The position numbers and the translations under genes were made by a program. Below the pieces are notes generated by a model. That model saw only the letters and a program-made list of their open reading frames with translations, had not been told where the DNA came from and made no database searches. A DNA stretch of 45,547 bases from positions 1 to 45,547 of the forward strand of contig JACMNA010000093.1 in the NCBI GenBank assembly GCA_014378765.1, read 5' to 3'. This stretch comes from Bdellovibrio sp. GTDB lineage: Bacteria > Bdellovibrionota > Bdellovibrionia > Bdellovibrionales > Bdellovibrionaceae. Each line of letters opens with the position of its first letter. Position 1 is the first letter of the stretch. This document shows positions 3,154-38,671 of the stretch, one piece after another.

Positions 3154-3369
3154 ATGGCGCAAGAAAAGTTATCTTCGTATGCACATTTACTTTTAGGTCT
3201 TACCAAACAAGAATTAGCCCGCCGGGTTGCCTTAGGTTTGATAAATCCTGAAATTCTGAAAGCTCAACTTGATCAAAATGCCCGCGATTTAAAATTAGAA
3301 GCACTTTGCGAGCGGTATATCGAATTACAATCGCTCTCGCAAGTCGACAAATACGACGCTAGCGAGTAA
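3154..3369 (+). CDS. Small helical protein of unknown function upstream of polA
   Basis: This 71-residue protein has no signal peptide and no membrane segment. It appears wholly alpha-helical (TKQELARRVALGLINPEILK, then LDQNARDLKLEALCERYIEL), with a charged tail. I do not recognise the family. It ends 13 bases before polA and is presumably co-transcribed with it. The start is the first ATG; no Shine-Dalgarno precedes it, but a promoter-like pair ends eight bases upstream. Its codon use resembles its neighbours, which supports a real gene over a chance frame. Confidence 0.6.
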   Translation: MAQEKLSSYAHLLLGLTKQELARRVALGLINPEILKAQLDQNARDLKLEALCERYIELQSLSQVDKYDASE

Positions 3370-3382
3370 TCTCGCGACCACT

Positions 3383-5941
3383 ATGAAACAGATTTATATT
3401 GTCGACGTCAGTTCGATGTTTTTTCGCGCGTATTATGCCATTCGCCCGTTGTCTTCAAGTAAAGGCGTACCGGTCAACGCGGTCTACGGATTTATTTCGA
3501 TGATAGTGAAATTGATGAAAGATAAAAACCCTGATCACATTGTTTTTTGTTATGACCGCAAAGAACCTTCATTTAGAAAAGATCTATACACCGAATACAA
3601 AGCGAACCGCACCGTTATGCCCGATGATATGCAAGTGCAAATGCCTTACTTAAAACAAGTCGCGAACCTTTTTGGAATTTGTGATTTAGAAGTTCCAAGT
3701 TACGAAGCCGATGACTTGATTGGAACCGTCGCGTGCATGGCGCGAAACGAAAATTATGAATCTTACATCGTTAGCGGCGATAAAGATTTCTGCCAAATCG
3801 TGGGCCCAAAAGTTTTTCTGTACGATACAATGAAGGATGTTATTTTTGATGAAGTACTCGTAAAAGAAAAGCACGGGGTGACTCCCGCGCAATTTATTGA
3901 TTACTTAGCAATTGTGGGCGACAGCTCAGATAACATTCCGGGCGTAGCCGGAATTGGGCCCAAGGGCGCCATCAAACTGATCGAGCAATTTGGCGACATC
4001 GAAGGAATCTACAAAAATATTGAACAAGTCGCAAGCGCTTCGATCAAAGAAAAATTAAAAGCGGCCGAACAGAATGCAATATTATCAAAAAAATTAGCGA
4101 CCATTGTTTGCGATGTGCCGCTTGATAAAACCTTAAACGATTTTAAACTAATGCCAATCAAGCGCGATGAATTGCGGGCCTTTCTGCAAGATCTTAATTT
4201 TAAAATGTTCGAGAAAACTTTGTTAGATTCGGGCGACGTGACCCACAAAATGACGGGCGTGGCGCCGGCTCCAGCCGCGGAAGCGGCGGAATCACCGGTC
4301 AGCATGTCAAATTATAGCATTCAATATAAAGATTGGAATCACGACGAAATTCAAGCCCGCATTACGGCGGGTGAAGAACTTTTTGCCTTTGTTGAAATGT
4401 CTAAATTAGGTTTGGGTTTTGGTCACGACCTTTACGTGACGGATCTTTCTAGCTGCAAGGTTGATTTTGCCAACATAAAATGGAATGGCTTCGACCTAAA
4501 AAAAGTTTGGACCGAGCTAGGGCTTAATGAAGACCTTAGTTTACAAGTGGGCTGGGATCTTATGTTAGGGGCCTACGTATTGCGGGCCGCCGATAGCTCT
4601 GAGATTTCAAAGTTAGCTACGTATTTTTTAAAAAAAGATTTAATTAAAGATGAATTAATTCCGGAAGTAGACCGATTTAAAGCGCTTTATGAAGTTTTAT
4701 TGCAGTTAAACGAGGTTACAAAAAAAGAACTCGAAGAAAAAGATTTAAGAATCATTTACGAAAAGCTAGAAAAACCAATTATTCCGATTTTATATAAAAT
4801 GGAAAAAAAGGGAATCGCCCTAGATCTTCCCTTTTTAAAGAAATTTTCAGACGAGCTAGCGGCCGAGCTGGCTGGGCAAGAAGCAAAAATTCACGAGCTA
4901 GCTAAAGAAAAATTTAATATCGGCTCACCTAAGCAATTGGGCGTTATTTTATTCGAGAAAATGGGCTTAGAATCGATAAAAAAAACTAAAACTGGTTATT
5001 CAACCGATAATGATGTTTTAGAAAAGTTAGCGCATCCAATCGCAAAAGAGATTATTCACTACCGTGAGGTCGCGAAATTAAAATCAACTTACGTTGATGC
5101 GTTACCCGTACTGGCCGATGCCAAACACCGCGTGCATACCAGCTTCAATCAAGCGTTAACGGCGACTGGTCGGTTTTCAAGTACGAACCCTAACTTACAA
5201 AATATTCCAATCCGAACCGAAAAGGGTCAAAAAGTGCGCTTAGCGTTTGTGGCTGCGCCCGGTAAAAAATTGTTATCGGTCGATTACTCACAAATCGAAC
5301 TAAGAGTTCTGGCACATATGTCAAGTGACCCGGGCTTGATCAAAGCTTTTCAAAATGACTTAGACATTCATGCGGCCACCGCCTCAGAAGTTTTTAACGT
5401 GCCATTAGATAAAGTAACTAAAGACCACCGCCGAATCGCAAAGGCGGTTAATTTTGGTATCGCCTACGGGCAGGGAACATACGGGCTAGCCGAAACTTTA
5501 GGAATAGGCCGCAAAGAAGCTTCCGAAATTATCGAGAGATATTTTACCCAGTTTAAAGGAATTAAAGATTACATCGAAAGTACAATCCAAAAAGCGCACG
5601 AACAAAAATACGTCGAAACATTATTTGGACGCAGACGTTACATTCCTGAACTTGATAACAAAAATGTCATGATCAAAAAGTTCGGCGAGCGTGCCGCCAT
5701 CAATGCGCCCATTCAAGGTACGGCCAGCGATCTGGTAAAAATGGCGATGATCGAAGTCGTAAAAGGCTTAAAGATTGATTTATTATTGCAAGTACACGAT
5801 GAATTAATTTTCGAGGGGACCGAATCAGATATTAAAAACCAAGTTGATTCAATCGTGCAAACAATGGAATCCGTGGCGCAATTAAAAGTTCCGCTTAAAG
5901 TTAATTTTTCGGTCGGCAATAATTGGGACGAAGCTCACTAG
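3383..5941 (+). CDS. polA: DNA polymerase I, with degenerate 3'-5' exonuclease domain
   Basis: At 852 residues this is a full-length family A polymerase for Okazaki-fragment processing and gap filling. The 5' nuclease domain (about 1-290) shows YEADDLIG (~107), VSGDKDFCQ (~130) and a helix-hairpin-helix region GDSSDNIPGVAGIGPKG (~179). The polymerase domain carries motif A DYSQIELRVLAHMS (~634), motif B RRIAKAVNFGIAYGQG (~685) and motif C VHDELIFE (~804). The middle domain (~305-470) has lost the metal-binding acidic residues: the usual FDTE block reads FAFVEMSKLG, and the later exo motifs cannot be found. It is therefore predicted to lack proofreading, like the Taq and Bacillus enzymes. It follows a small gene by 13 bases. 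Confidence 0.97.
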   Translation: MKQIYIVDVSSMFFRAYYAIRPLSSSKGVPVNAVYGFISMIVKLMKDKNPDHIVFCYDRKEPSFRKDLYTEYKANRTVMPDDMQVQMPYLKQVANLFGICDLEVPSYEADDLIGTVACMARNENYESYIVSGDKDFCQIVGPKVFLYDTMKDVIFDEVLVKEKHGVTPAQFIDYLAIVGDSSDNIPGVAGIGPKGAIKLIEQFGDIEGIYKNIEQVASASIKEKLKAAEQNAILSKKLATIVCDVPLDKTLNDFKLMPIKRDELRAFLQDLNFKMFEKTLLDSGDVTHKMTGVAPAPAAEAAESPVSMSNYSIQYKDWNHDEIQARITAGEELFAFVEMSKLGLGFGHDLYVTDLSSCKVDFANIKWNGFDLKKVWTELGLNEDLSLQVGWDLMLGAYVLRAADSSEISKLATYFLKKDLIKDELIPEVDRFKALYEVLLQLNEVTKKELEEKDLRIIYEKLEKPIIPILYKMEKKGIALDLPFLKKFSDELAAELAGQEAKIHELAKEKFNIGSPKQLGVILFEKMGLESIKKTKTGYSTDNDVLEKLAHPIAKEIIHYREVAKLKSTYVDALPVLADAKHRVHTSFNQALTATGRFSSTNPNLQNIPIRTEKGQKVRLAFVAAPGKKLLSVDYSQIELRVLAHMSSDPGLIKAFQNDLDIHAATASEVFNVPLDKVTKDHRRIAKAVNFGIAYGQGTYGLAETLGIGRKEASEIIERYFTQFKGIKDYIESTIQKAHEQKYVETLFGRRRYIPELDNKNVMIKKFGERAAINAPIQGTASDLVKMAMIEVVKGLKIDLLLQVHDELIFEGTESDIKNQVDSIVQTMESVAQLKVPLKVNFSVGNNWDEAH

Positions 5942-28795: not shown

Positions 28796-29953
28796 TTAAG
28801 CGCCTGCTATAGCTTGTAAAAAACCCATGGGGTCTTTTTCAAATTCAAAGTAATTGTCTGGATTAATAGTCACGATGTAAGCGTTTGGGTATTGTTTTTT
28901 AAAAGCAATTAACCCTTTTTGCGACTTTGATGAATTACTTTTAACTTCAATCGCCCAAATAAGTTTTCCTTTTTTCAAAACAAAATCAACTTCATGCTGT
29001 CCTTCGCGCCAGTAATACAAGCTTTCATTTGTTCGACATAATTGCGCGCCAACTACTACCTCAAATGCTCGACCTCGTTCGTCAGAATTGTAGGATGACT
29101 GTACGGTTAGCTGAAAAAAACAGGGCGCCAATGGTAGTATTTTTGGTGATGAAGACTTTGTTTTTACGATTTTAGCCGAAAATTTTTCGAGTGCGCGTAA
29201 TAAGAAAGCTCCTTCATAAAGTTTAAGGTAGTTTTTTATTAGCTCGACATTACCGCGGTCTTGAATCTGACCAAGTAGTTTGGTGTAAGAAATTTCTTGG
29301 GCCGGATAACCCATTATGATTTCAAAAGCCTGCCGAAACAGGGCAGGGCTTTTTACATTTTGATATTGCAAAATATCTTTTTCAATAACTGTATTCACAA
29401 TCGAGTTTTTAACGTAGGCCGACCATTCATCAGGTTGATGCCTTAAATTATATGAGCCTGGGTATCCACCATATTGTAAATAGTCTTCGAACGTAACGTC
29501 GTAGCCCCGATTAGATTCTTCAAAATTCCAGTGATAAGCGTGTGTCTGCTGAAATCGCCCCGTTAAACTTTCCGTCAATCCCTTTTGAATTTCTAGTGAG
29601 CTTGAGCCCAACAATACGCATCGTATTGGTTTTTTATTTCTTTTGTTTTCATCATATAATTTTTTAATTACTTCGGCCCAATTTTCACATTTTTGAATTT
29701 CATCGATGAATAGTATTTTTTTGTCTTGGCCTGCTTGTATCCACTGTTGTGTGAGCCAGTCAGCATCAGAATTAAAAACTTTATCGGCACTTACGTAATA
29801 AGAACTATTCTTATAATGTTCATCGATTAATAATAAAATGGAGGTGGTCTTGCCAACTTGGCGCGGTCCGGTTAATACTTGAATAAGGCCATTATTTTTC
29901 TCAAGATTTGAGCTTAAGCTATTGATATAATTTAACTTTATTGTCTTTTCCAT
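28796..29953 (-). CDS. AAA ATPase with DUF4143 (ATP-binding plus C-terminal nuclease-like domain)
   Basis: This 385-residue protein belongs to the widespread 'ATP-binding protein, DUF4143' family. Walker A is LTGPRQVGKTTSIL (~27-40), Walker B KKILFIDEIQKCENWAEVI (~78-96), and SSSLEIQKGLTESLTGRF is sensor-like (~117-134). The C-terminal region has HEVDFVLKKGKLIWAIEVKS (~320-340), whose spaced D and E-x-K resemble restriction-endonuclease-type folds. The cellular role of the family is not established. It lies antisense between apt and hpf, has its own promoter-operator, and appears to be an insertion into the rpoN-hpf neighbourhood. Confidence 0.88.
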   Translation of the reverse strand: MEKTIKLNYINSLSSNLEKNNGLIQVLTGPRQVGKTTSILLLIDEHYKNSSYYVSADKVFNSDADWLTQQWIQAGQDKKILFIDEIQKCENWAEVIKKLYDENKRNKKPIRCVLLGSSSLEIQKGLTESLTGRFQQTHAYHWNFEESNRGYDVTFEDYLQYGGYPGSYNLRHQPDEWSAYVKNSIVNTVIEKDILQYQNVKSPALFRQAFEIIMGYPAQEISYTKLLGQIQDRGNVELIKNYLKLYEGAFLLRALEKFSAKIVKTKSSSPKILPLAPCFFQLTVQSSYNSDERGRAFEVVVGAQLCRTNESLYYWREGQHEVDFVLKKGKLIWAIEVKSNSSKSQKGLIAFKKQYPNAYIVTINPDNYFEFEKDPMGFLQAIAGA

Positions 29954-29998
29954 ATTTGATAGCTTAACCTATCAAATATAATAGGTCAACCTATCAAA
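29952..29998 (-). promoter_or_regulatory. Operator-like repeats over the DUF4143 ATPase start
   Basis: ATATTTGATAG (29952-29962) and CTATCAAATAT (29969-29979) form a perfect 11-bp inverted repeat with a 6-base spacer; the left arm overlaps the start codon (29951-29953). The 11-mer AACCTATCAAA occurs at 29966-29976 and again at 29988-29998, exactly 22 bases (about two helical turns) apart. ATAGGT (29981-29986) and ACCTAT (29989-29994) form a further inverted repeat. The whole set covers the candidate promoter, as expected for a repressor site. Confidence 0.7.
29961..29989 (-). promoter_or_regulatory. Candidate promoter for the DUF4143 ATPase, probably leaderless
   Basis: On the minus strand TTGACC (29989-29984; five of six) and TAAGCT (29966-29961; three of six) lie 17 bases apart; the -10 ends seven bases before the start codon. 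No Shine-Dalgarno exists. The boxes lie inside the inverted and direct repeats, so binding there would block polymerase. Confidence 0.45.
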
Positions 29999-34756: not shown

Positions 34757-36559
34757 TTGGATCCAAAGTTTATTCGTAATTTTTCGATCATCGCGCATAT
34801 CGATCACGGTAAATCAACTTTAGCCGATGGTTTACTTGCGCATACGGGCGCTATCGAAGATCGAGAAAAAAAAGCGCAGTTCTTAGATAACATGGAACTT
34901 GAGCGCGAACGCGGAATTACCATTAAGGCGCAAACCGTTTGTCTTAATTATAAATCAACGGTTGATGGCCAGACTTACCAAATTAATTTGATCGATACGC
35001 CGGGGCACGTCGATTTTTCTTACGAGGTTTCGCGTTCATTAGCCGCATGTGAAGGCGCCATTCTAGTGGTCGACGCCGCGCAAGGGGTTGAGGCCCAGAC
35101 GCTGGCGAACGTTTACCTAGCGATGGAGAATAATTTAGAAATTATTCCGGTTTTAAATAAAATTGATTTACCGAACGCCGATCCTGAAGGCGTAAAAAAA
35201 CAAATCGAAGATACAGTTGGGTTAGATTGCACTAATATTATTTTAGCTTCAGCTAAAGAGAAAATTGGTATTGGCGAGATTCTTGAGGCCGTGATTGCCC
35301 GCGTTCCACCTCCGCAAGCAAACCGCAACCTTAATCCGCGCGGACTTATTTTTGACTCGTGGTTCGACGCATATCAGGGCGTGGTTGTCTTAGTTCGCAT
35401 GATGGACGGAATTATTAAAAAAGGCGATCGCATTAAATTTATGGCGACCGACCGCGATTATGAAGTTCTACGCATGGGAAAATATACGCCATTTCCATTA
35501 CCTGTCGACACCCTTGATTCGGGTGAAGTGGGTTTTATCATTTGCGGAATTAAAGATATTCGCGATGTTAAAGTAGGAGATACGGTCACGGCCTCAAAAG
35601 CCACCGGGGTTAAACCTTTACCCGGTTTTCAAAAAATTAAGCCCATGGTCTTCGCCGGAATATTTCCGGTCGTAGCCAGTGAGTACGAAAATTTAAAAGA
35701 CGCGCTAGATAAACTTTGCTTAAATGACTCTTCTTTATCTTTCGAAAAAGAAAAATCATTGGCCCTAGGCTTCGGTTACCGCTGTGGTTTTTTAGGTCTA
35801 CTGCATATGGAGATCGTACAAGAGCGGCTCGAGCGAGAATTTAATCTTAATTTAATCACAACGGCACCCACCGTGGTTTACCGCATTACAAAAAATGACG
35901 GCACAGTTTTGATGTTAGAGAATCCATCGGGCATGCCCAACGAAACTCAAATCGCCAAGATGGAAGAGCCCTACGTTAAGGTAACGCTGCACACACCAAC
36001 CGAATATATCGGCGGATTATTAAAACTTTGCGAAGACAAGCGTGGTATTCAGCTAAAGATGGATTACATCAACGAAAAAAAAGTAATCATTGAATACAAA
36101 CTACCCATGAACGAAATGGTGATGGATTTTTACGATCGCCTGAAATCGATTACCAAAGGCTACGCTTCGTTAGAATATGAATTTATGGATTTCGAAGAAG
36201 CCGATCTGGTTAAAATGGACATCCTCATCAACGATGAACCCGTCGACGCCCTTTCACTGATCCTCCATCGCTCAAAAGCGCAAACGCGGGGTCGCTTGCT
36301 GACCGAAAAGATGAAAGAACTGATTCCGCGCCAACAATACCAGGTGAATATCCAAGCCGCCATCGGGGCCAAGATCATTGCCCGCGAGACTCAAGGGGCT
36401 ATTAGAAAAGACGTGACGGCGAAATGTTATGGTGGTGACATATCCAGAAAGAGAAAACTTCTTGAAAAGCAAAAAGAAGGTAAAAAGCGCATGAAGCAAA
36501 TCGGATCGGTTGACGTTCCGCAAGAGGCTTTCTTGGCCATTCTCAAAGTGGAGGACTAG
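34757..36559 (+). CDS. lepA: Elongation factor 4 (LepA)
   Basis: This 600-residue translational GTPase back-translocates or remodels stalled ribosomes and acts in ribosome assembly. GTPase motifs are [17 protein letters not shown] (~8-24), [12 protein letters not shown] (switch I), [14 protein letters not shown] (~78-91) and [15 protein letters not shown] (~132-146). The LepA-specific C-terminal domain is present ([20 protein letters not shown] is read here as [20 protein letters not shown]), ending [20 protein letters not shown]. It starts at TTG with AGAGGT upstream. lepA directly upstream of lepB is a widely conserved order and supports the following signal peptidase calls. Confidence 0.97.
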
Positions 36560-36563
36560 TCCC

Positions 36564-37385
36564 ATGTTTGGATCTAACAACGAACCTAAAAAAGTTAAGT
36601 ATAACGGCTGGGATGTGCGTAATCGTTTGTTTTGGACCGAGGGTTGGGGCTCGATGGGGCTTGCGATACTTGCGGCATTAACGATTCGTTGGCTTTTTTT
36701 AGAGGCCTACGTAATTCCGTCGGGCTCGATGTTTCCTTCGCTATTAAAAAATGATCACATTTTCGTAAATAAATTAGTTTACGGTGTTCGGTTTCCCTTC
36801 AGCGAAAACTGGATGTTTAAATTTCGCGAGCCCGAGCGCGGCGAAGTAATTGTATTTAAATATCCAAAAGAAATGGGAACATTTTTTATTAAACGTATCG
36901 TTGGTATTCCGGGCGATAAAGTAAAATTTGAAAACGGGGTCTTGTACATTAACGATAAGCCGCAAGAAAAAACCGTTCCGCAGTCATCGGCCGACTTTGA
37001 TTATCTTCGTGAAGAAGATTTTAAAAGCGAGGGCGGAATGCAAGATACCAAATCTAATTACGTGCACTTTACCGAAATGCTAGATGGCGGCACTCGTGAA
37101 CAAACTAAAACTATCTCACACAGTATTCTTATGAAAAAAGGCGAGCTATTGGGCTTTCCGGGTGACGGGGAATGGATTGTTCCGCAAGATTCGTTATTTG
37201 TTATGGGCGACAATCGCTATAATTCACACGATTCGCGTTTTTGGGGATTTGTACCTATGAAAAATATCTTAGGTAAGGCCGGATTTGTCTGGCTTAGCTG
37301 CGAAGAGATGCTGCCGGTCATATCGGTTATTTGCAATCCGTTAACGGTGCGAGGCTCGCGATTTTTTCATACCATTCATAACTAA
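36564..37385 (+). CDS. lepB: Signal peptidase I, copy 1
   Basis: This 273-residue inner-membrane serine protease removes signal peptides. One membrane helix (~30-48) precedes the catalytic serine in YVIPSGSMFPSLLKNDH (Ser 55). The catalytic lysine lies in TFFIKRIVGIPGDKV (~110), and the conserved box FVMGDNRYNSHDSRFWGFVP (~213-232) is intact. An insert of about 70 residues between the lysine box and the GDN box matches larger Gram-negative enzymes. ATG 36564 is preferred since GGAGG (36550-36554) lies nine bases upstream. First of three adjacent copies, each different in sequence. Confidence 0.95.
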   Translation: MFGSNNEPKKVKYNGWDVRNRLFWTEGWGSMGLAILAALTIRWLFLEAYVIPSGSMFPSLLKNDHIFVNKLVYGVRFPFSENWMFKFREPERGEVIVFKYPKEMGTFFIKRIVGIPGDKVKFENGVLYINDKPQEKTVPQSSADFDYLREEDFKSEGGMQDTKSNYVHFTEMLDGGTREQTKTISHSILMKKGELLGFPGDGEWIVPQDSLFVMGDNRYNSHDSRFWGFVPMKNILGKAGFVWLSCEEMLPVISVICNPLTVRGSRFFHTIHN

Positions 37386-37439
37386 ACGAATTTATTTTTT
37401 TGCTTAGTAATTTATTTCTTAATTCAGCACGAGGCATTG

Positions 37440-38171
37440 GTGGGCTTTCCAAGAAAAAAAATAGGACTGCAGGGAACTTGGCCCCAAGCCTTAACGATTT
37501 TTTTATTGCCCATTTTTTTAATTTTTGCATTTCGTTGGTTTTTATATGAGCCCTTCGTTATTCCATCCGAAAGCATGGTTCCTAATTTATTAATTCACGA
37601 TCATATTTTGGTACAAAAATATTCATACGGATTTAAACCACCCCTCGGGGATGGCTGGCTGATTCGATTTCGTCAGCCTGAGCGGGGCGACGTTGTTGTT
37701 TTTAGATATCCAGAAAATCGAAACGTATTTTATATAAAGCGCTTAATTGGCCTTCCCGGCGATGTCGTTAAAGTGCAAAGTGGGCAGATTACCGTCAATG
37801 ACAAACCGTGGGGATTAGTCGCCTTGAACGAGACTGAATTTTCTGAGTCAGAAGAATTTAATTACTATAATGAGTTTCCTGAGCCTCCAAGGTCTTTTGA
37901 AAAACCCCACACCATCCGATTTTTCAAAAATGAAGAGCATGTTGAAGTTGAAGAAAAAGAATTCGTCGTGCCGCAAGATTCTTATTTCGTCATGGGCGAC
38001 AATCGGGATCAATCGCGTGACTCGCGTTTTTGGGGTTTTGTGCCGGGCGATCTAATTGTGGGACGCGCATCGATTATATGGATGAGTTGTGAGTCGACTT
38101 TAGACTCGGCCCCCTTTATTTGTAACCCTTTACGCTTGCGCACCGGTCGTTTTATGAAGACGATAGATTAG
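37440..38171 (+). CDS. lepB: Signal peptidase I, copy 2
   Basis: This 243-residue signal peptidase has a membrane helix (~17-35, ALTIFLLPIFLIFAFRWFLY) and the serine box FVIPSESMVPNLLIHDHILV (Ser 45). The lysine box is FYIKRLIGLPGDVV (~100), and the GDN box YFVMGDNRDQSRDSRFWGF is intact. All catalytic elements are present. GTG 37440 is preferred over TTG 37437 because GAGG at 37431-37434 then has a five-base spacing. It shares with copy 1 the C-terminal 'W.SCE......ICNPL..R..RF' ending, showing that these two copies are close relatives that arose by duplication. Its stop overlaps the start of copy 3. Confidence 0.93.
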   Translation: MGFPRKKIGLQGTWPQALTIFLLPIFLIFAFRWFLYEPFVIPSESMVPNLLIHDHILVQKYSYGFKPPLGDGWLIRFRQPERGDVVVFRYPENRNVFYIKRLIGLPGDVVKVQSGQITVNDKPWGLVALNETEFSESEEFNYYNEFPEPPRSFEKPHTIRFFKNEEHVEVEEKEFVVPQDSYFVMGDNRDQSRDSRFWGFVPGDLIVGRASIIWMSCESTLDSAPFICNPLRLRTGRFMKTID

Positions 38172-38671
38172 TGAAAAAATCTTCAAATTTTATTTTTGTT
38201 ATTGCCGCTTTTCTATTAGCGGTTTTTATAAGAACTTTTTTTATCGGCGTTTATAAAATTCCAACGCAATCAATGGTACCCACTTTTTTGCCGGGAGATC
38301 ATTTGCTGGCATCGAAAATTACCTACGGGCTTCACTTTCCTTGGAATGAAGATATTTGGTTTGCATCAAAACCTCAGCGTAACGATATCATTATTTTTAA
38401 CTTTAAAGATAAATCAAGTATGACGTACATTAAAAGGGTCACGGCCATTGAAGGCGACGAAGTCCAGCTGCCAAATGGCCAATTGGCGATTGTTCCTCAA
38501 GATGAAGTTTACGTTCTTAATGATAATCCTGATTTCATAGATGATTCACGCGAGCACGGATTTGTGGCGCTTAAAGATATTGAAGGTCAGGCACGATTGA
38601 TTTGGTTTTCTTCATCTAAAGAAAGTGGCGTTCGCTGGAATCGTCTACTCACTACCCCGACCAAGCTCTAG
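38171..38671 (+). CDS. Signal peptidase I-like protein, copy 3 (short, divergent)
   Basis: This 166-residue protein keeps the membrane helix (~7-24), the serine box YKIPTQSMVPTFLPGDHLLA (Ser 34) and a lysine box SMTYIKRVTAIEGDEV (~87). The long insert is missing and the usual MGDNR..S.DSR box is altered to LNDNPDFIDDSREHGFV: Gly is replaced by Asn, the Arg after Asn by Pro, while DSR remains. The Ser-Lys dyad suggests activity is possible, but substrate choice may differ. A GTG start overlaps the stop of copy 2 (TAGTG), so the two are translationally coupled. No gene symbol is given because of the divergence. Confidence 0.85.
   Translation: MKKSSNFIFVIAAFLLAVFIRTFFIGVYKIPTQSMVPTFLPGDHLLASKITYGLHFPWNEDIWFASKPQRNDIIIFNFKDKSSMTYIKRVTAIEGDEVQLPNGQLAIVPQDEVYVLNDNPDFIDDSREHGFVALKDIEGQARLIWFSSSKESGVRWNRLLTTPTKL

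Follow-up and report, generated by a model that had tools for sequence, protein, structure and literature searches.

What reads the compact set of inverted and direct repeats that lies over the start codon of an ATPase gene? The gene lies at 28796..29953 on the minus strand of the window, which is the whole stretch of Bdellovibrio DNA that was analysed (45,547 nucleotides), and it encodes an AAA_14-DUF4143 protein of 385 aa. The sequence-only reading had offered 2 binders, the protein itself or an unlinked repressor. We put at roughly 86% the probability that the element is an autogenous operator, through which the AAA_14-DUF4143 ATPase-nuclease would repress its own promoter.

The operator pair and its predicted promoter

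The window sequence contains 2 abutting pseudo-palindromes of 22 bp each, 29955-29976 and 29977-29998, with the consensus TTTGATAGGTTGACCTATCAAA. The distal operator O1 (29977..29998, minus strand) reads TTTGATAGGTTGACCTATTATA on the gene strand, and homologues have the same site at the same place. The proximal operator O2 (29955..29976, minus strand) reads TTTGATAGGTTAAGCTATCAAA and abuts O1 at a 22-bp pitch, its last base standing 1 before the ATG. The palindromes are head to tail, and the gene-strand order upstream of the start codon (29953-29951, minus strand) is TTTGATAGGTTGACCTATTATA-TTTGATAGGTTAAGCTATCAAA-T-ATG. The repeats named in the sequence-only reading are all present within this arrangement. 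The perfect 11-bp inverted repeat over the start codon consists of ATATTTGATAG (29952-29962) and its partner arm CTATCAAATAT (29969-29979), the 11-mer AACCTATCAAA at 29966-29976 recurs at 29988-29998, an offset of exactly 22 bp, and the third inverted pair ATAGGT/ACCTAT has its ATAGGT at 29981-29986.

With up to 3 mismatches, the pattern TTTGATAGGTTNACCTATCAAA finds the operator pair as its sole match in the window (mean 0.00 in shuffles), and at up to 2 mismatches the operator pattern has no second copy in the 2.87-Mb host assembly. Within its host genome, the ATPase gene is the only one with this operator. It is the paired palindrome that is significant; the lone 11-mer with 1 mismatch allowed is found 3 times versus 1.5 expected, which is not significant. 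The pattern scan of the window shows no operator copy at the 3' end of the ATPase gene. An RNA element was also considered as a reading of the repeats and was dropped when Rfam gave no match.

The predicted -35 hexamer TTGACC (29984..29989, minus strand) is in the O1 dyad and the predicted -10 element TAAGCT (29961..29966, minus strand) is in the O2 dyad, in keeping with the earlier claim that the repeats cover both elements. In 24 tandem pairs from the window clade, TTGAC is at the dyad position of 20/24 distal sites and 0/24 proximal ones, and TANNNT is at the dyad position of 21/24 proximal sites and 0/24 distal ones. The spacer is 17 bp, as it is in the window copy, with the -10 ending 6-8 bp upstream of the ATG (7 bp in the window copy). 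Hence, the 22-bp pitch fits the spacing of -35 and -10, giving one promoter element per operator. No Shine-Dalgarno-like site is present in 22 of the 24 pairs, and the message of the ATPase gene is probably leaderless.

The predicted -10 of the window copy matches TATAAT at only 3/6 positions, and this weakness is a point against autogenous repression. It would suit an ATPase that, bound to its own sites, activates or regulates under nucleotide control instead of simply repressing, as would the fusion of an ATPase domain to a DNA-binding domain in the structural model described below. Sites lying over the -35, the -10, and the start codon, however, have the geometry that blocks RNA polymerase, and we regard activation or switching as improbable.

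Operators before homologous genes

If the repeats are an operator of this gene, they should accompany it elsewhere. Relatives were gathered by protein similarity only, which avoids circularity, giving 80 genome_contigs loci from many bacterial phyla. Sites of the TTTACTCAATNNATTGAGTAAA type number 64 in 44/79 loci at no more than 95 bp upstream, versus 0.05 expected from the remaining DNA of those loci, and the best and second-best sites are exactly 22 bp apart in 67/85 loci. Named plasmid relatives have the same layout, with 2 sites in Collinsella and 3 in Bacteroides at 22-bp pitch, and at least 1 clear site in Thermus. None of the 4 tested site types is found in 17 of 102 relatives, some of which perhaps have a misplaced start, a degenerate site, or another operator type. 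As read from these upstream sequences, the format of 22-bp palindromes at 22-bp pitch before the start codon is common to relatives in many bacterial phyla. An operator directly before the gene also allows better start-codon calling.

Among 369 genomes of the phylum, 11 contain the window-type palindrome at up to 2 mismatches, and 9 of those 11, counting the window's own, have it upstream of an AAA_14-DUF4143 gene or what is left of one. This search upstream of DUF4143 homologues bears directly on the sequence-only reading, in which absence of the repeats before orthologues would have spoken against an operator that spans promoter and start codon. The element is instead kept before homologues whose flanks are not conserved, which supports that claim. 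One match of the operator search (locus L044) is inside a coding gene and was taken as chance.

The protein tree splits into 2 clades, one with TAG operators (21 rows) and one of 80 in which ACTCAA operators predominate. Operator type tracks this tree, requiring 20 changes as compared with 42.7 when labels are shuffled, and 0/200 shuffles came as low.

The best-scoring DUF4143 loci of the phylum were considered as carriers of the operator and rejected, being distant subfamilies that have palindromes of their own and no window-type operator. Such more distant subfamilies have other, often longer palindromes, and the upstream inverted repeat ranks in the top 5% of its own locus in 21/33 loci. 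Examples with different long palindromes before the start codon are seen across loci L005-L034 and L071-L079 (e.g., L027, L008, and L076). In L042, 2 DUF4143-type genes stand head to head on the 2 strands near 1500-1700, the second with its own direct repeats GTTCAGTATAAAGGTCAAACTAG before the start. Phage DNA was also considered as the operator's target and rejected, viral contigs being almost free of operators; they contain 0 matches of the window type, 3 of the ACTCAA type, and 1 of a control pattern, none adjoining a DUF4143 gene.

Probable recognition by the protein

Pfam assigns the protein to the AAA_14-DUF4143 family, which we take to be COG1373, with 95.9 bits for AAA_14 (E = 2.4e-27, cut-off 27 bits) and 80.4 bits for DUF4143 (E = 1.6e-22, cut-off 28.1 bits). 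The AlphaFold2 model, made from 61 relatives, has a mean pLDDT of 94.6. It contains a predicted winged helix-turn-helix at residues 203-248 (29210..29347, minus strand), with helix 1 at 203-214, helix 2 at 223-229, and helix 3 at 236-248, and the secondary structure of the model places the wing strands, encoded on the same strand, at residues 252-257 and 271-274. A PD-(D/E)XK-like nuclease core spans residues about 298-338 (28940..29062, minus strand) as helix-strand-strand-strand in the model, and it has the residues of the PD-(D/E)XK motif, E298, D323, and E336 being invariant and K338 nearly so in the 61 sequences. From secondary structure and conservation, we assign 3 domains to the 385-aa chain, in this order: an ATPase domain at about residues 24-138, then the winged helix-turn-helix, then the PD-(D/E)XK-type core.

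The best fold matches of the model in the PDB are the archaeal AAA+ ATPases SSO1545 (2fna, E = 2.3e-7) and PABY2304 (2qen, E = 6.1e-7). The likeness to our ATPase spans most of the chain, but identity is 13-17%, TM-scores are 0.47-0.53, and rmsd is 5.7-7.8, so that the low TM-scores and high rmsd indicate a common domain plan and not close kinship. We know of no operator for SSO1545 or PABY2304. Searching solved structures by sequence gave no convincing member of the DUF4143-ATPase family.

Residues 224 and 236, which stand at the start of helix 2 and helix 3, respectively, covary with operator bases. A profile search gave 51 full-length proteins of the window clade, and their half-sites were picked by the TAG core and A/T flanks alone, leaving bases 4 and 5 free to vary. 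Of 334 variable columns, residue 224 ranks first for information about base 4 and residue 236 for information about base 5, each being second for the other's base. Arms from T224 proteins have A or G at base 4 in 126/129 cases, and arms from N224 proteins have T there in 41/49; at base 5, C is the usual partner of T236, and A or G that of V or I at 236. Two apparent exceptions, L213 and L219, turn out to carry N224 and accordingly have T at base 4 in most arms, and in 5 T236 proteins C is not in the majority at base 5. Fisher tests give p = 3e-9 and 1e-8 on two-by-two tables that ignore ancestry. Tree-based independent pairs almost all run in the expected direction, and for these 2 residues none contradicts it, but the well-supported ones are too few for significance, and the co-change could be due in part to shared ancestry. 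Between the 2 large clades, too, divergence is highest in the recognition helix.

The covariation with helix-turn-helix residues and the match to the tree strongly support recognition of the operator by the gene's own product, and it is on these that the choice between binders turns. For an unlinked host repressor, with the ATPase itself not bound at the palindromes, it can be said that a small, separate regulator is the usual reader of a palindromic operator, and the neighboring ORFs bear out the earlier statement that no regulator gene lies beside the ATPase. Such a repressor would, however, be serving an operator that is private to one gene of its genome, would need to be co-transferred as the operator moves between phyla with the gene, and would need to co-mutate as the operator varies with ATPase residues 224 and 236. 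The dozens of DUF4143 genes in one genome would each require one. We therefore consider an unlinked repressor highly improbable, and of the 2 binders proposed from the sequence, the gene's own protein is strongly favored.

The autogenous operator might work as follows. From the conserved and phased sites, their covariation with the protein, the predicted fold, and an empty site in congeners (below), we infer that the winged helix of the ATPase-nuclease would bind both abutting 22-bp palindromes, probably with a dimer on each palindrome and both dimers on one face of the DNA. The unit bound at O1 would cover the -35 and that at O2 the -10 with the start, which would repress and not activate, keeping the level of the ATPase-nuclease low at a promoter that would yield a leaderless message. 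Since gene and repressor would be a single unit, the arrangement would work wherever the gene lands.

The recognition code makes predictions that can be stated in advance: T224N with V236I should shift the half-site preference from TTTGATAG to TTTTATAG, and V236T with E237D should shift it to TTTACTAG. The 44-bp elements and the residue swaps at 224 and 236 are ready probes for binding, repression, and induction.

Genomic setting and the candidate defense family PDC-S01

A PADLOC scan, limited to the ATPase protein itself, matches it to profile PDLC04791 (PDC-S01) essentially over its full length, at E = 1.4e-128 and profile positions 5-380 of 395. In a 2026 survey, PDC-S01 is the fourth most common defense candidate in prokaryotes, described as a single-gene candidate with an ATPase fused to PD-(D/E)XK, and most such candidates still await validation (PMC12988326). 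Our literature search found no experimental validation of PDC-S01. The domain make-up described in the survey equals that of the window ATPase; the survey mentions no operator or autoregulation (PMC12988326). On profile and domain evidence, the window ATPase is a member of PDC-S01, a putative phage defense family. The genes around it, judged by their Pfam hits and ORF translations, include apt, rpoN, and hpf, the rest also looking like housekeeping genes, and no defense gene was noticed beside it among them; embedding in a defense locus is how PDC-S01 candidates were found, and is no rule for every copy.

The sequence-only reading also expected a toxic or mobile-type gene, and only the second half of this has held. 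In 3 congeners (L081, L082, and L084), rpoN-apt-hpf is kept and the interval from apt to hpf is empty, indicating that the ATPase gene and its operator arrived together, or were lost together in those congeners, although the intergenic DNA is too diverged for the exact insertion boundaries to be read. Homologues with the same operator occupy other gene neighborhoods. Mobility of the gene is thus supported; toxicity has found no support. In one genome (G352, L176, about 3200-3830), the operator precedes a decayed ATPase gene whose middle is gone, with residues 23-77 and 215-381 left. In another (G120, L172, 4169-4212), a tandem operator pair at 22-bp pitch lies between 2 convergent genes, with no adjoining ATPase gene and no DUF4143 gene in the genome, and is perhaps a fossil left by gene loss.

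A gene that moves, a nuclease fold in the model, direct arrays at a 22-bp pitch in the fashion of iterons, and the gene-less array of G120 could together suggest that the palindromes serve the ATPase-nuclease chiefly as a site of cleavage, homing, or iteron-like replication and not as an operator. We find this very improbable. The sites are at the 5' end only, in register with -35 and -10 and with no 3' copy, viral contigs are nearly free of them, and the homes of the gene are mostly chromosomes; such a function leaves both the promoter register and the lack of sites elsewhere unexplained. The G120 array, in a genome without a DUF4143 gene, fits gene loss as well as it fits an empty target. 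Nor does the locus look like an iteron-controlled replicon, the ATPase gene being between apt and hpf in a locus that congeners keep without it.

The proposed autogenous operator has parallels in toxin-antitoxin operons, the C proteins of restriction-modification systems, and Aca regulators, which are autogenously repressed. Like the ATPase gene, they combine a mobile, potentially harmful gene with compact palindromes over its promoter, and in them the unit supplies its own reader, as the ATPase gene would. They differ in that their DNA-binder is a separate small protein, whereas the ATPase would have effector and putative repressor on one 385-aa chain. The locus is not a type II toxin-antitoxin operon, being a single gene with no small partner ORF.

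Autogenous repression is well known, but a one-chain ATPase-nuclease with a family-wide operator of its own and a readable code is without description in the searchable papers. No description of operators for DUF4143, COG1373, AAA_14, or PDC-S01 was found in a search that mostly did not reach subscription papers and preprints. A self-operator with a readable code would be a first handle on PDC-S01, predicting the DNA bound by each member. It would also imply dosage control of the family and would explain how a single gene crosses phyla yet stays regulated.

A wider proposal, which we think rather unlikely as a whole, is that every gene of the DUF4143/PDC-S01 superfamily has a palindromic operator for itself alone, which the winged helix of its product reads, and that the operator is a parking site. 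The ATPase-nuclease would be inactive on its own promoter until an infection upset transcription or nucleotide levels in the host, and would then be released or de-repressed, making autoregulation the sensing step of a one-gene defense.

Two observations are separate from the operator. The window has 3 type I signal peptidase-like genes in tandem at 36510-38671, as judged from their translations. In the phylum, genomes G327, G328, G354, and G345 each give 55-84 DUF4143 candidates on a first look, which for a candidate defense family is an unusual expansion.
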